Below, in pieces: positions 18,108 to 38,402 of a DNA stretch of 50,269 nucleotides; the stretch's first letter is position 1, and every line of letters starts with the position of its first letter. Location: contig JAHEXV010000011.1 in NCBI GenBank assembly GCA_023251935.1, positions 1-50,269 of the forward strand, in the 5' to 3' direction. This DNA comes from a bacterium. Its GTDB lineage: Bacteria; Actinomycetota; Thermoleophilia; Solirubrobacterales; 70-9. The notes beneath the pieces were generated by a model. The model ran no database searches and was not told where the DNA came from. It worked only from the letters and a program-made list of their open reading frames with translations. The translations under genes and the position numbers were made by a program.

Positions 18108-18262
18108 AAGGCTCGAGCTTGTTCGATAGCCGCTCCAATTGTGAGCCAGCACAATCGGCTTGGGAGTCGGTTTCCGGTGGGCCGCACACGGCCCGTCCGG
18201 TAGACGCCCACCTTCTGAGAAGGGTTCTCAAGCCGAGCGGCGTCGGCAAGTTGGAGCCTTTG
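18108..18262 (+). ncRNA. ssrS: predicted 6S RNA
   Basis: The 277-bp gap between genes contains nested complementarity. AAGGCTC (18109-18115) pairs with GAGCCTT (18254-18260), GCTCCAA with TTGGAGC offers an alternative closing stem, and CGGCTTG pairs with CAAGCCG. The apical part is GGTGGGC/GCCCACC enclosing GGCCG-CACA-CGGCC and GTCCGG. The 3' half, GCCCACCTTCTGAGAAGGGT then TCTCAAG...GCGGC, resembles the E. coli 6S segment TTCACCTTGAACCAAGGGTT. It includes the small hairpin that forms in the 3' side of the central bubble. TATGGT at 18097-18102 would start the RNA at the closing stem. Gene order hisS-aspS-(6S)-mnmA-alaS-ruvX-mltG matches Bacillus. 6S RNA sequesters housekeeping RNA polymerase. 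Confidence 0.6.
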
Positions 18263-24887: not shown

Positions 24888-25714
24888 CCGCCCGCAAGCG
24901 GCTGGCGGTGCTGGGCCAGCCGATCTCGCACTCCCGCTCGCCCGCCATGCACTCGGCAGCACTCGCCGAGCTCGGCCTGGTGCCTGAGTGGTCCTACGAG
25001 GCGATCGAGGTCTCGCCCGAGGCTCTCGAGCCCCGCATCGGGGCGATGCCCGGCGAGGGCTTCGTCGGGGCGAACGTCACCGTCCCGCACAAGGTCCGCG
25101 TGCTCGAGCTCGCCGACCAGGCGTCGGGGGCCGCGCGCGAGATCGGCGCCGCCAACACCCTCAGCTTCGCCGGCGGGCGGATCCTCGCCGAGAACACCGA
25201 CGCGGCGGGCTTCCTGGACGCCCTCCCGGAGCCTCCCACGGGCAAGCGGGCGCTGGTCCTGGGGGCAGGTGGGTCGGCGCGGGCGGTCGTCTGGGCGTTG
25301 CTTGAAAACGGCGCCTCGGTGTCGATCTGGAACCGGACCCCGGCGCGAGCCGAGCGCCTCGCGGAGGAGATCGGCGGCACCGCGGTTGTCCCGGATCGGG
25401 GGTGGCAAGCCGCCGGTGGTGACTACGACCTGATCGTCAACACGACTACGGTGGGAATGGGCGCGGGCGGCGAGGGGTCCAACGACCTCAAGCGCCTGCC
25501 CCTGCCGGCCGATTCCCTGGGCGAGAGACACCAATTGGTGGACCTGGCCTATGGACCGGTCGAAACGGAACTCGTGCGCGTTGCCCGGGCGCAGGGGGCC
25601 ACCGTCGTCGACGGGCTCGAGGTCCTGGTCCGCCAGGGCGCCGCGTCGCTTCGGATCTGGACTGGGTTGGAAGCCCCGGTCGAGACGATGAGACGGGCCG
25701 CCCGTTCGGCCTAG
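24884..25714 (+). CDS. aroE: shikimate dehydrogenase
   Basis: The 276-aa enzyme shows the substrate site LGQPISHSRSPAMHSAAL, the catalytic lysine motif NVTVPHKVRVLE, TDAAGFLDAL, the NADP Rossmann motif VLGAGGSARAV with NRTPARAERLA, and a C-terminal DGLEVLVRQGAASL. It reduces 3-dehydroshikimate to shikimate with NADPH. The start is TTG at 24884 in a TTGA overlap with mltG. The stop is immediately followed by the pilB ATG. The other aro genes resume only after the pilus genes, at 43167. Confidence 0.95.
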   Translation: MTARKRLAVLGQPISHSRSPAMHSAALAELGLVPEWSYEAIEVSPEALEPRIGAMPGEGFVGANVTVPHKVRVLELADQASGAAREIGAANTLSFAGGRILAENTDAAGFLDALPEPPTGKRALVLGAGGSARAVVWALLENGASVSIWNRTPARAERLAEEIGGTAVVPDRGWQAAGGDYDLIVNTTTVGMGAGGEGSNDLKRLPLPADSLGERHQLVDLAYGPVETELVRVARAQGATVVDGLEVLVRQGAASLRIWTGLEAPVETMRRAARSA

Positions 25715-27508
25715 ATGAGCACCACCAAGCGCCCAGGACATCTGAGATCCGTACCCGCCCCCGGCGAGGCGACCGCGCGCCGGCTGGACGAGGAGCACGA
25801 GCGTAAGGCGCCCACCGGGATCACCGCGCCGACCCGCCGGGGCCACTCGGGCGTGTTCGTCACCGACGTGATCGTCGAGCTGGGCTACGCGAATCGCCAG
25901 CGCGTCGACGAGGTGATCACCGAAGCTCGGGTCGCGGGCAAGACCCCAGAGGCGCTGCTGCTCGAGTACGACCTGATCGACACAGACCGGCTCTCGCGCG
26001 CGATCGCCGAGCGCTACGGGCTCGACCACATCGACCTCAACGTCCACATGGTCGACATGGGCGCAGCGAACCTGCTGTCGATGAGCGCCGCGCGACGCTA
26101 TCGGGCAATCCCGGTCGGTTATGTCGACCAGCAGACCCTGCTGCTGGCGATGGCCGACCCCGCCGACGTGCTCGCGGTCGACGACATCCAGATGATGACC
26201 GGGCTCCACTGCCACGTGGCGGTCGCCGCCGCCGATGACATCGACGCGCTGATCGGCCGCATGAACACGCTCGAGACCGCCGTCTCGGAGGCGGTCTCCG
26301 AGGAGGAGGACCTCGAGGGGGAGGCCGAGGTCACCGAGCTGCACGAGTCGGCCGGCGACGCCCCGGTGATCAAGTTGGTCTACTCGGTCATCGCCCAGGC
26401 CGTCGGCGAGGGTGCCTCCGACATCCACTTCGAGCCCGACGAGGGCGAGATGAGGGTTCGCTTCAGAGTCGACGGCGTGCTGCACGAGACGGCCCGCGTC
26501 CCGAAGCGAATGATCTCCGGGGTGATCTCGCGGGTGAAGCTGATGGCCGACATGGACATCGCCGAGAAGCGCGTTCCCCAGGACGGGCGGGTGAGCGTCA
26601 ACGTCGACGAGCGCAAGGTTGACCTCCGCGTGACTACGCTTCCCACCCAGCGCGGCGAGGGCTGCTCGATCCGCATCCTCGACAAGGAGCAGGCGATGCG
26701 CACCCTCGACGAGCTCGGCATGGACGGCGAGCGGCGAACGCTGTTGGAAGGCGCCTTCACCCGGCCCTACGGCGCCGTCCTGGTCACCGGGCCGACCGGC
26801 TCCGGCAAGTCGACGACGCTGTACGCGGCGCTGCTGGAGCTGAACGCCGTCGAGCGCAACATCATCACGATCGAGGACCCAGTGGAGTACCGGATCTCCG
26901 GCATCAACCAGCTGAACGTCAACCGCAAGGCCGGGCTGACGTTCGCCAATGGGCTGCGGTCGATCCTCAGGGCCGATCCCGACGTGATCATGGTCGGCGA
27001 GATCCGCGACGCGGAGACGGCGCGGATCTCGATCGAGGCGGCGCTCACCGGCCACATGGTGTTGACGACGCTCCACACCAACGACGCCCCGGGCGCGGTG
27101 GCGCGACTTGGCGAGATGGGAATCGAGAGCTTCCTGACAGCGTCCGCGATCGAGTGCGTGGTCGCCCAGCGGCTGGCGCGCCAGCTCTGCACCTACTGCA
27201 AGCGACGAACCATGGTCCGCCAAGACACGTTGCTCGAGGTGGGCGTCCGCATGGGCGCCGACCTCGAGGCCTACGAGCCGGTCGGCTGTGGCCGATGCAG
27301 CCAGACCGGGTACCGGGGGCGAATCGGCCTCTATTCGGTGATGCCGATGAGCGATGAGATCAAGAACCTGACCGTGAGTCGGGCGGCCGAGACCGAGATC
27401 GCCGCCGTGGCGCGCGAGCAGGGGATGCTCACCCTGCGCGAGGACGGGCTCGCCAAGGTCAGGGCGGGGATCACCTCGGTCGAGGAGATCGGCAGGATCT
27501 CGGTCTAG
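25715..27508 (+). CDS. pilB: type IV pilus extension ATPase PilB (GspE family)
   Basis: The 597-aa protein has a T2SSE N-terminal domain (about 45-190), then the ATPase core. Walker A GPTGSGKSTT is at about 359-368, the Asp box is IITIEDPVEY, Walker B is DPDVIMVGEIRD (421-432), and the His box is TTLHTNDAPG. A tetracysteine zinc site CTYC...CGRC (492/495, 525/528) is typical of PilB rather than PilT. It powers pilus extension from the cytoplasmic side. The N-terminal domain should be checked for c-di-GMP binding, given the riboswitch downstream. ATG 25715 abuts the aroE stop. Confidence 0.95.
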   Translation: MSTTKRPGHLRSVPAPGEATARRLDEEHERKAPTGITAPTRRGHSGVFVTDVIVELGYANRQRVDEVITEARVAGKTPEALLLEYDLIDTDRLSRAIAERYGLDHIDLNVHMVDMGAANLLSMSAARRYRAIPVGYVDQQTLLLAMADPADVLAVDDIQMMTGLHCHVAVAAADDIDALIGRMNTLETAVSEAVSEEEDLEGEAEVTELHESAGDAPVIKLVYSVIAQAVGEGASDIHFEPDEGEMRVRFRVDGVLHETARVPKRMISGVISRVKLMADMDIAEKRVPQDGRVSVNVDERKVDLRVTTLPTQRGEGCSIRILDKEQAMRTLDELGMDGERRTLLEGAFTRPYGAVLVTGPTGSGKSTTLYAALLELNAVERNIITIEDPVEYRISGINQLNVNRKAGLTFANGLRSILRADPDVIMVGEIRDAETARISIEAALTGHMVLTTLHTNDAPGAVARLGEMGIESFLTASAIECVVAQRLARQLCTYCKRRTMVRQDTLLEVGVRMGADLEAYEPVGCGRCSQTGYRGRIGLYSVMPMSDEIKNLTVSRAAETEIAAVAREQGMLTLREDGLAKVRAGITSVEEIGRISV

Positions 27509-29043: not shown

Positions 29044-29115
29044 CGGCCGGTTGATCCCGGGCGGCCCGCACGGTCGGGCCCGGAACCGATCGGTTGGCGG
29101 CCAGCCGGCTAAAGC

Positions 29116-30240
29116 ATGCGTGCACGCCCGACGATCAAGGACCCGATGAGCGTCGACTTCGCTGACGTACTCACCCAGATGGTCGACTCGCGGGCATCCG
29201 ACGTCCACCTGACGCCGGGGTTCGCGCCCGCCATCCGCGTCCGTGGGCGGATCGTGCCCATGGACGACTATCCACCGCTCAGCCCGCAGGACACGCGGGA
29301 GATCGTCTACTCGATCCTCAACGACTCCCAGCGCAAGCGGTTCGAGAACCAGCAGCAGCTCGACTTCGCCTATGCGATTCCCGGCGTGGCGCGCTTCCGC
29401 GTCAACTGCTTCTTCCAGCGCGGCTCGATCTCTGCGGCCTTCCGGCACGTCCCGACCGAGATCCTGAGCCTCGAGTCGCTGGGCCTGCCGTCGGTGCTCG
29501 AGGAGTTCACCCGCAAGCCGCGAGGCTTCGTCCTGGTGACTGGGCCCACCGGCTCGGGGAAGTCCACCACCCTGGCCTCGATGGTCGACGTGATCAACGA
29601 GCAGCGGGAGGAGCACATCCTGACGATCGAGGACCCGATCGAGTTCCTTCATCGCCACAAGAACTGCATCGTCAACCAGCGTGAGATCGGTGCCGACGCG
29701 GTCGACTTCGCGACCGCGCTGAAGGGCGCTCTGCGCGAGGACCCGGACGTGATCCTGGTGGGCGAGATGCGGGACCTGGAGACGATCGCGACCGCGCTGA
29801 CCGCCGCCGAGACCGGCCACCTGGTGTTCGCGACCCTCCACACCCAATCCACCGCCCAGACCGTGGACCGGATCATCGACGTGTTCCCGCCGCACCAGCA
29901 ACAGCAGGTGCGGATGCAGATGTCGATCGCGCTCCAGGGGATCGTCACCCAGCAGCTCCTGCCGACCGCCGACGGCTCGGCGCGGATCGTCGCCTGCGAG
30001 GTGATGGTGCCGACGCCGGCGGTCCGCAACCTGATCCGGGAGGGCAAGACCCACCAGATCTACTCGGCGCTTCAGACCTCCGGCGCGGTCGGGATGCAGA
30101 CGATGGACGCCCATCTCGCGCAGCTGGTGCGGATGGGGAAGGTGACGCGCGGCCTCGCCGAGCAGCGGGCCTCGGTGCCCGAGGAGCTGAAGCGGCTGCT
30201 GAGTGGCAGCCCAGGGATGACCGTCCAGGCGGTCGCCTGA
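29116..30240 (+). CDS. pilT: type IV pilus retraction ATPase PilT
   Basis: The 374-aa protein starts with the PilT N-terminal domain (MVDSRASDVHLTPGFAPAIR). It carries Walker A GPTGSGKSTT (about 144-153), HILTIEDPIEFLH, REIGADAVDFATALKGALRE, the Walker B DPDVILVGEMRD, FATLHTQSTAQTVDRIIDVF, and the PilT-specific C-terminal KTHQIYSALQT in place of AIRNLIRE-type variants. It drives pilus disassembly. The start may be ATG 29116 or MSVDFAD at 29146. Unlike PilB it lacks the zinc tetracysteine. The pilC gene follows 20 bp later. Confidence 0.95.
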   Translation: MRARPTIKDPMSVDFADVLTQMVDSRASDVHLTPGFAPAIRVRGRIVPMDDYPPLSPQDTREIVYSILNDSQRKRFENQQQLDFAYAIPGVARFRVNCFFQRGSISAAFRHVPTEILSLESLGLPSVLEEFTRKPRGFVLVTGPTGSGKSTTLASMVDVINEQREEHILTIEDPIEFLHRHKNCIVNQREIGADAVDFATALKGALREDPDVILVGEMRDLETIATALTAAETGHLVFATLHTQSTAQTVDRIIDVFPPHQQQQVRMQMSIALQGIVTQQLLPTADGSARIVACEVMVPTPAVRNLIREGKTHQIYSALQTSGAVGMQTMDAHLAQLVRMGKVTRGLAEQRASVPEELKRLLSGSPGMTVQAVA

Positions 30241-33928: not shown

Positions 33929-34070
33929 CGCCCAAGGCGAGGCACGCCATCCGCCACGGACACCACGCATGTCGGCTAGGGGCCACCACCTAGACGTGGA
34001 CGGATGTACTCCCTATCCGCCTCAAGGGGTAGCCGCATGAGACCGATGAGGGGAGTCGTAAACGGCCAGT
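33929..34070. other. leader upstream of the riboswitch
   Basis: A hairpin CTAGGGGCCACCACCTAG near 33976-33993 may terminate the protease transcript. The riboswitch promoter should be here, but I cannot pick one with confidence. Confidence 0.4.
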
Positions 34071-34157
34071 GCCCTGGCGCACAAAGGCAAACCCGTCGTG
34101 AGGCGGGGGCGCAAAGCCACGGGGCTCGAGCGTCGAGTCAGCCGGGCTGCCGCCGGG
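34071..34157 (+). promoter_or_regulatory. class I cyclic-di-GMP riboswitch (GEMM-I)
   Basis: The aptamer has the conserved GCACA..GGCAAACC at 34079-34093. A P2 stem CCCGTC/GGCGGG capped by the GNRA tetraloop GTGA follows, then CGCAAAGCCACGGG (34110-34123), a P3 hairpin CTCGA/TCGAG, and the 3' side AGCCGGGCTGCCG. These match the GEMM-I consensus. It lies about 70 bp upstream of the major pilin ATG. The expression platform (34158-34229) holds a second copy of GCCCTGGCG (34193), a GGAAC/GTTCC hairpin and the AAGGAGGG Shine-Dalgarno. It should couple pilin synthesis to c-di-GMP; on or off direction is not clear from sequence. Confidence 0.93.
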
Positions 34158-34229
34158 TCACAGCGACACCGGACTGGCTAGCGGTTTGGGGCCCTGGCGG
34201 AATAGGAACAGGTTCCAAGGAGGGACTGA

Positions 34230-34691
34230 ATGATCCTCAAGCTCCGTCAGAGGATGGCGAGGGACGAATCCGGCTTCACGCTGGTCGAGCTCCTGGTCGT
34301 CATGCTCATTCTCGGACTCCTGGCCGCGATCGCGATCCCGGCCTTCTTCAATCAGAGGAACAAGGCCAAGGACGCGAGCGCCAAGGAGGCCGCACGCACA
34401 GCGGAGACGGCGATCGAGACGTTCGCGACCGACAACGGCGGTGCCTACACCAACGCCACCGTCGCCGGCCTGCAGAACATCGAGTCGACGCTGAACGGCG
34501 CCAACCTCTCGGTGCCGACCCACACCGCCACCACGTACAAGGTCACGGTGACGTCAACCACCGGGAACACGTTCAGCATCGCCCGGAACGCAAACGGCAC
34601 GACCGTGCTGTCGTGCACGCCTGCGAATACGGACGGTTGTCCGGCATCAACTGCCACCACCGCGCCAGATGGCGACTGGGGCAACGGTTAA
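34230..34691 (+). CDS. pilA: major type IV pilin
   Basis: The 153-aa prepilin has a short leader ending at Gly (MILKLRQRMARDESG), the type III cleavage and stalk motif FTLVELLVVMLILGLLAAIA with Glu at +5, then FFNQRNKAKD and a Thr/Asn-rich globular head with one cysteine pair (SCTPANTDGC). PilD would cut after Gly15 and the pilin would be polymerised by PilB/PilC. Start ATG 34230 follows AAGGAGGG. It is directly controlled by the c-di-GMP riboswitch and closed by a strong hairpin at 34728. Confidence 0.94.
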   Translation: MILKLRQRMARDESGFTLVELLVVMLILGLLAAIAIPAFFNQRNKAKDASAKEAARTAETAIETFATDNGGAYTNATVAGLQNIESTLNGANLSVPTHTATTYKVTVTSTTGNTFSIARNANGTTVLSCTPANTDGCPASTATTAPDGDWGNG

Positions 34692-34727: not shown

Positions 34728-34761
34728 GGCAGAGGGCGGGCCTTCGGGCCCGCCCTCTGCC
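34728..34761 (+). terminator. strong hairpin after the major pilin
   Basis: A perfect 15-bp stem GGCAGAGGGCGGGCC with loop TTCG and exact complement is followed by TTG. It probably terminates most pilin transcripts and lets a fraction through to the minor pilin genes, or protects the pilin mRNA 3' end. Confidence 0.88.
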
Positions 34762-38316: not shown

Positions 38317-38402
38317 GCGACCCGGTCAAGGCGCTCAACTCGGGCCGCGAGGTCGCCGATGAAGTGCTCGAAACCGAGCAGCGATCAGCCATCGAAGAGA
38401 CC

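Follow-up and report, generated by a model that had tools for sequence, protein, structure and literature searches.

The window, by which we mean the whole stretch of 50,269 nucleotides analysed here, carries a type IV pilus cluster in which pilB, pilT and pilC lie upstream of a pilin gene whose open reading frame has a class III N-methylation motif. The leader of this pilin gene holds a c-di-GMP-I aptamer together with a promoter match and two hairpins (Table 1). The PilC protein of the genome is 88% identical to PilC of the Actinobacteria metagenome bin VAYK01000010.1. Elsewhere in the window, a 6S RNA was found at 18108-18261 on the forward strand (51.8 bits against a cut-off of 46.4).

Table 1. 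Features of the pilus cluster and the pilin leader.
Feature	Position	Strand	Remarks
PilB	25715-27508	+	Pfam MshEN match; two c-di-GMP motifs degenerate-looking
Second WhiG-type promoter match, near pilT start	29109-29137	+	CTAAAG-15-GACGATCA; 12/14
WhiG/sigma-28-type promoter	34021-34049	+	-35 CTCAAG (34021-34026), 15-nt spacer, -10 ACCGATGA (34042-34049)
P0 helix, 5' strand	34065-34074	+	GCCAG U GCCC; GCCAG conserved; kept in aptamer-less relatives
c-di-GMP-I (GEMM-I) aptamer	34077-34155	+	RF01051 and RF03167 covariance-model matches (cmscan)
P0 helix, 3' strand	34189-34198	+	GGGC C CUGGC; overlaps second GCCCTGGCG copy
Shine-Dalgarno (SD) hairpin	34211-34227	+	GGUUCC-AAGGA-GGGACU; SD 34217-34223 in or beside loop
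Type IV pilin gene	34230-34691	+	153 aa, N_methyl domain (PF07963, E=1.1e-8)
G+C-rich hairpin 3' of pilin gene	34731-34758	+	Probable terminator or processing hairpin, read from sequence

The aptamer matched RF01051 with 62.4 bits (cut-off 35; E=7.5e-12) and the genome (2.49 Mb, 84% complete) has no other match to this model, while the 14 control genomes searched with RF01051 gave none. By alignment, the ligand-contact positions of c-di-GMP-I, G20, A47 and C92 (PMC3764141, PMC4744006), are canonical (34086, 34113 and 34150, respectively), and, as read from the sequence, P2 is capped by the GNRA tetraloop GUGA (34098-34101) and the P1 core consists of 4 bp (34076-34079/34151-34154). The same interval scored just above the cut-off of RF03167 (c-di-GMP-I-GGC; 60.4 bits against 59). 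On our reading of the RF03167 consensus, the family name GGC would stand for G20-G47-C92; since position 47 is A in the window (GGGGCGCAAAGCC) and not the conserved G of that consensus (GACGCGAA), we assigned the RNA to c-di-GMP-I rather than to the GGC variant. The distance from the aptamer end to the pilin ATG (34230) is 74 nt. The original prediction had placed a complete set of GEMM-I elements, including a GNRA-capped P2, about 70 bp before a pilin start codon and had proposed a check against Rfam; the model score, the pocket, the GUGA loop, the distance and the N_methyl domain of the reading frame all agree with it, supporting a c-di-GMP-I aptamer in the pilin leader of an actinobacterial genome.

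At the level of the family, 17 of 50 genomes had c-di-GMP-I aptamers, as did 128 of 232 in the order and 164 of the 399 sampled from the class. Whenever a search covered more than 40 genomes, the filters were stricter and can have missed weak aptamers, so that absence is provisional except where the leader itself was read. Within the order, pilin and riboswitch occurred together in 102 of the 232 genomes, the riboswitch only in 26, the pilin only in 33 and neither in 71 (counts uncorrected for kinship). Of the 24 aptamers in the family, 14 lie 58-80 nt before a pilin. About 140 aptamers of the order were read, and from these came 37 distinct pilin leaders, our comparison set, in which the distance from aptamer to ATG is near-constant. 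At three loci (L140, L149 and L194), pilin genes stand in tandem, and every copy has a c-di-GMP-I aptamer and a P0-like leader of its own. Most of the remaining aptamers of the order stand before secreted or surface proteins, and in many of these cases the ribosome-binding site comes directly after P1; at such non-pilin loci, for example L005, L007, L014 and L024, the ribosome-binding site adjoins the P1 3' strand (CCGAAAGGAG) in a more compact platform before secreted proteins. Twenty more loci, taken from other orders of the class, yielded 14 located aptamers; a link to a pilin was seen in none of the 14.

A sequence repeated in the aptamer start and the expression platform had been proposed as a switching partner. 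Both copies of GCCCTGGCG are indeed present (34071-34079 and 34191-34199), but the second is mostly the 3' strand of a helix, P0, which encloses the aptamer with one U.C mismatch, and the conserved partner of the repeat is GCCAG (34065-34069) upstream of the aptamer, not P1 by a simple swap. The commonest 5-mers of the pilin leaders are GCCAG, just upstream of P1, and its reverse complement CUGGC, in the linker after the aptamer; GCCAG occurred in 24 of 32 pilin leaders compared with 5 of 101 other riboswitch leaders. For 26 of 36 leaders, the linker of the same leader contains an exact reverse complement of the 5' motif, compared with a mean of 3.5 (maximum 9) with shuffled linkers and 20.4 +/- 1.6 with linkers swapped between leaders, where 4 of 2000 permutations were as high. 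Compensating variants include GCUGG/CCGGC, GUCAG/CUGAC and GCCAA/UUGGC. When 105 segment pairs were tested by swapping, the SD hairpin ranked first and P0 second (z=5.8 each), with P1 at z=3.0; for P0 the value involves some circularity, as complementarity was used to locate the 3' strand of this helix, and since swapping leaves relatedness in, these values are not probabilities. An RNAduplex test of P0 had no power in this G+C-rich RNA. Two other pairings of the repeat were set aside. The simple swap, P1 3' strand with the second copy, was not among the leading covarying pairs of the 105-pair scan, and the second copy (34194-34201) can form 8 bp with the pilin coding start (UCCGUCAG) here, with no excess over swapped linkers when the leaders are compared.

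The SD hairpin had a mean stem of 4.26 bp compared with 2.30 bp when arms were swapped between leaders, and stems of at least 5 bp were present in 15 of 34 leaders where 1.2 were expected. Counts over MAFFT columns were mildly positive (26 cells changed on both sides against 17.6; 12/500 shuffles), and only mildly so because loop lengths vary; the register-free tests were stronger. Whether the aptamer was formed or P1 was forbidden in the ensemble, predicted SD accessibility stayed the same for nearly all of the leaders computed, which made up most of the set. Sequestration of the SD under P1 control was therefore rejected, leaving direct SD sequestration unsupported as the read-out.

The WhiG/sigma-28-type promoter match predicts transcription to start at about 34056, and promoter spacings put some 3-11 nt between this start and the P0 5' strand. 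The flagellar/WhiG consensus has TAAA at -35 and GCCGATAA at -10 (PMC8325347), and the pilin leaders of the order share, at a conserved position, an upstream CT(A/C)AAG-N14/15-(G/A)CCGAT(A/G). WhiG-type promoters scoring at least 11/14 were found for 64% of 36 pilin leaders compared with 2% of shuffles, and they also precede 30% of the 101 non-pilin aptamers of the order (2% in shuffles). Outside the order, five c-di-GMP-I aptamers (L246, L249, L251, L252 and L253) likewise have WhiG-type promoters before them, with secreted proteins downstream where a gene was found. Within the window, weaker matches lie before pilB (25487-25515) and at 38334-38362. In addition, a palindrome-like element (GGACAAACGTCC / GGACGAATGTTC) lies upstream of the pilin promoter at about 33998-34010, and relatives have similar sites 75-120 nt before G20. 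It was seen in 15 of 37 pilin leaders against 0.5 in shuffles, and in 14 of 102 other leaders; since these data also supplied the pattern, the enrichment does no more than hint at an operator.

The genome encodes a FliA/WhiG-type sigma factor, WhiG (TIGR02479, 278 bits against a cut-off of 189.6), as well as a small protein in which one RsiG motif (EERQISYRRRLLHGKID) was identified by the pattern E(X)3S(X)2R(X)3[Q/H](X)3D. Allowing only Q in this pattern had led to a phasin-like protein instead of RsiG. The solved chains nearest to the candidate are those of Rubrobacter RsiG (PDB 7lq2/7lq3/7lq4, E=1.7e-8), and 7 of 9 genomes searched have an RsiG motif by pattern. In Rubrobacter, c-di-GMP-armed RsiG binds WhiG and the pair was proposed to control type IV pili; single-motif RsiG has been reported from Rubrobacteria and Thermoleophilia only, and the same article makes no mention of a riboswitch (PMC8325347). 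WhiG would drive the pilin promoter, and RsiG is expected to hold WhiG when bound to c-di-GMP. Given a WhiG-type promoter with RsiG and an aptamer in the leader, c-di-GMP probably acts on the pilin twice, once through the sigma factor and once through the leader RNA.

A third layer through PilB was also considered. PF05157 (MshEN) matches PilB residues 101-184, and c-di-GMP receptors of this type carry two RLGxx(L/V/I)2xxG(L/V/I)2xxxxLxxxLxxQ motifs (PMC5013675). By eye, both motif stretches of the PilB N-terminus (FVTDVIVELGYANRQRVDEVITEA; TPEALLLEYDLIDTDRLSRAIAER) are without the Arg, the first Gly and the Gln, and this layer was rejected.

At least 11 relatives have a pilin without the aptamer and retain P0 wholly or mostly, together with the promoter. 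G021, from the same genus, has the leader GCCAGUCCC-GGAAU-GGGGCUUGGC behind the conserved promoter, the leader of G026 reads GAGCUGGGGC-UCUGGAAGG-GCUUCGGCUC, and P0 or most of it is likewise found in G040, G042, G038, G034, G033 (one pilin), G031, G037, G140 and G141. A cmscan of the first aptamer-less loci returned no riboswitch. G031 has kept the 5' edge of the aptamer (GGUGCAAGAGGCA) and lacks about 74 nt after it; relic and deletion are shared by G037, and they identify these absences as losses and not as an ancestral state. Aptamer-bearing and aptamer-less members occur side by side in each of three genera (g1, g6 and g9), which makes three or more losses of the aptamer probable, as counted by genus and not on a tree. 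Since P0 persists in aptamer-less relatives, it presumably matters independently of the aptamer. In G229 and G231, other 5' hairpins of different sequence occupy the same place. To judge from these leaders, the aptamer is dispensable in several lineages, which counts against the reading that we favour.

That reading, which we hold to be probable, is of a canonical c-di-GMP-I riboswitch in the pilin 5' leader, behind a WhiG-type promoter and with P0 as its platform, acting as a predicted ON switch. Comparison among relatives supports the identity of the aptamer, its pocket, P0, the SD hairpin, the promoter, WhiG and RsiG, and repeated aptamer loss; ligand binding in vivo, coupling of the ligand to P0, the ON sign and the action of RsiG-WhiG in this genome are what we infer. 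The pilin mRNA would start at the WhiG-type promoter, where RsiG with c-di-GMP would be expected to hold WhiG. The aptamer would sit atop the P0 hairpin, whose 5' strand would lie near the mRNA 5' end, and a separate small hairpin would carry the ribosome-binding site. Binding of c-di-GMP would fold P1-P2-P3 and join the P0 strands, and the ligand-bound leader would then resemble the closed-P0 form that is permanent in aptamer-less relatives. Closed P0 would be the expressing form, as a stable or translatable mRNA, with c-di-GMP raising expression. The ON sign is predicted because the aptamer-less strains keep P0 permanently closed, and the position of the P0 5' strand near the predicted start makes protection of the mRNA 5' end a plausible route. 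Against this reading counts Vc1, which keeps all ligand contacts and yet binds weakly (PMC4744006).

Because the inner P0 strand and an outward extension of P1 share nucleotides 34072-34074, the ligand could also weaken P0. The sign would then be the opposite one: ligand-stabilised P1 would take these nucleotides, open the inner half of P0 and lower expression, and together with RsiG-WhiG this would amount to a coherent shut-off of pili at high c-di-GMP. Either helix can form in many leaders, the outward extension of P1 shows weak covariation (z=2.0), and the class I switches of C. difficile are uniformly OFF (PMC6200980), as is Vc2 (PMC9262584). However, the 4-bp P1 core uses none of the shared nucleotides, and the aptamer-less relatives have a closed P0 and an intact pilin, so that the closed form of P0 probably does not represent the off state; we regard an OFF switch at this pilin as rather unlikely.

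The persistence of P0 after the aptamer has gone, the losses in g1, g6 and g9 and the failure to find SD coupling computationally would also fit a leader in which P0 and the SD hairpin are general elements of mRNA stability or translation and the aptamer has lost its regulatory role and is decaying as a passenger. We consider this improbable, since the order as a whole retains the pocket nucleotides and covariation in P1, the aptamer of this genome scores 62.4 bits and most pilin-bearing genomes keep a c-di-GMP-I aptamer.

The search for GGDEF and EAL genes that the original prediction had suggested yielded 8 GGDEF and 2 EAL matches. Seven of the GGDEF domains have NDxxGHxxGD, with Asp, the eighth is degenerate, and a Hypr-type Ser was seen in none of the 8. 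Hypr enzymes have Ser where these domains have Asp, and cGAMP-type GEMM-I RNAs carry A in place of G20, alongside a Hypr GGDEF synthase; G20 is present here. With GGDEF and EAL genes encoded and NDxxGHxxGD in seven domains, c-di-GMP is therefore the expected ligand. That the aptamer senses something else, such as cGAMP or whatever c-di-GMP-I-GGC variants bind, would accord with an RF03167 score above cut-off and is made very improbable by the A at position 47, the retained G20 and the state of the GGDEF domains.

The aptamer is of a known kind, and c-di-GMP riboswitches before pilus genes are already known. Vc2 of Vibrio cholerae (RF01051) has the same P1-P2-P3 fold, GNRA loop and G20/A47/C92 pocket, whereas here the aptamer lies inside a conserved P0 hairpin and the ribosome-binding site in a separate one. 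The pilM riboswitch of Geobacter metallireducens, an ON switch, likewise places a GEMM-I fold before type IV pilus genes (PMC9262584), but it responds to cGAMP, is terminator-based and precedes an assembly gene and not a pilin; no intrinsic terminator was seen in the pilin leader studied here. The precedent from Clostridioides cited in the original prediction holds in part: Cdi-2-4 of Clostridioides difficile pilA1 is a c-di-GMP riboswitch in a major pilin leader, with type IV pili under c-di-GMP control (PMC6200980). It is, however, a different RNA, of class II with an unrelated fold, and acts by transcriptional read-through. We know of no sigma-28/RsiG layer for C. difficile pilA1. The (RsiG)2-(c-di-GMP)2-WhiG system of Rubrobacter radiotolerans shares single-motif RsiG, WhiG, WhiG-type promoters of pilus genes and a basal actinobacterial host (PMC8325347), and differs in that here the pilin transcript also carries a c-di-GMP aptamer. 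Our search, which left most subscription journals outside its reach, found no literature joining c-di-GMP, riboswitches and Thermoleophilia. The nested platform, its repeated loss and its pairing with a c-di-GMP-gated sigma factor appear to be new.

For the order as a whole, we lean somewhat towards a model of two stacked c-di-GMP layers on the pilin, RsiG-WhiG at the promoter and an aptamer nested in a 5' hairpin, the latter a removable module whose repeated loss would have left natural constitutive controls. An anti-sigma switch and a riboswitch, each a known c-di-GMP device, would thus meet at a single pilus gene of a basal actinobacterial lineage, which raises the question of why one molecule is sensed twice. 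If the two layers differ in sign or threshold, a band-pass or a pulse may result; should RsiG-WhiG reduce pilin transcription when c-di-GMP is high, an ON riboswitch would work against it and might yield a response at intermediate levels, and an OFF riboswitch would reinforce it. Related genomes that differ by deletion of the aptamer and keep promoter and outer hairpin constitute a natural experiment, by which the function of the expression platform can be separated from ligand sensing.
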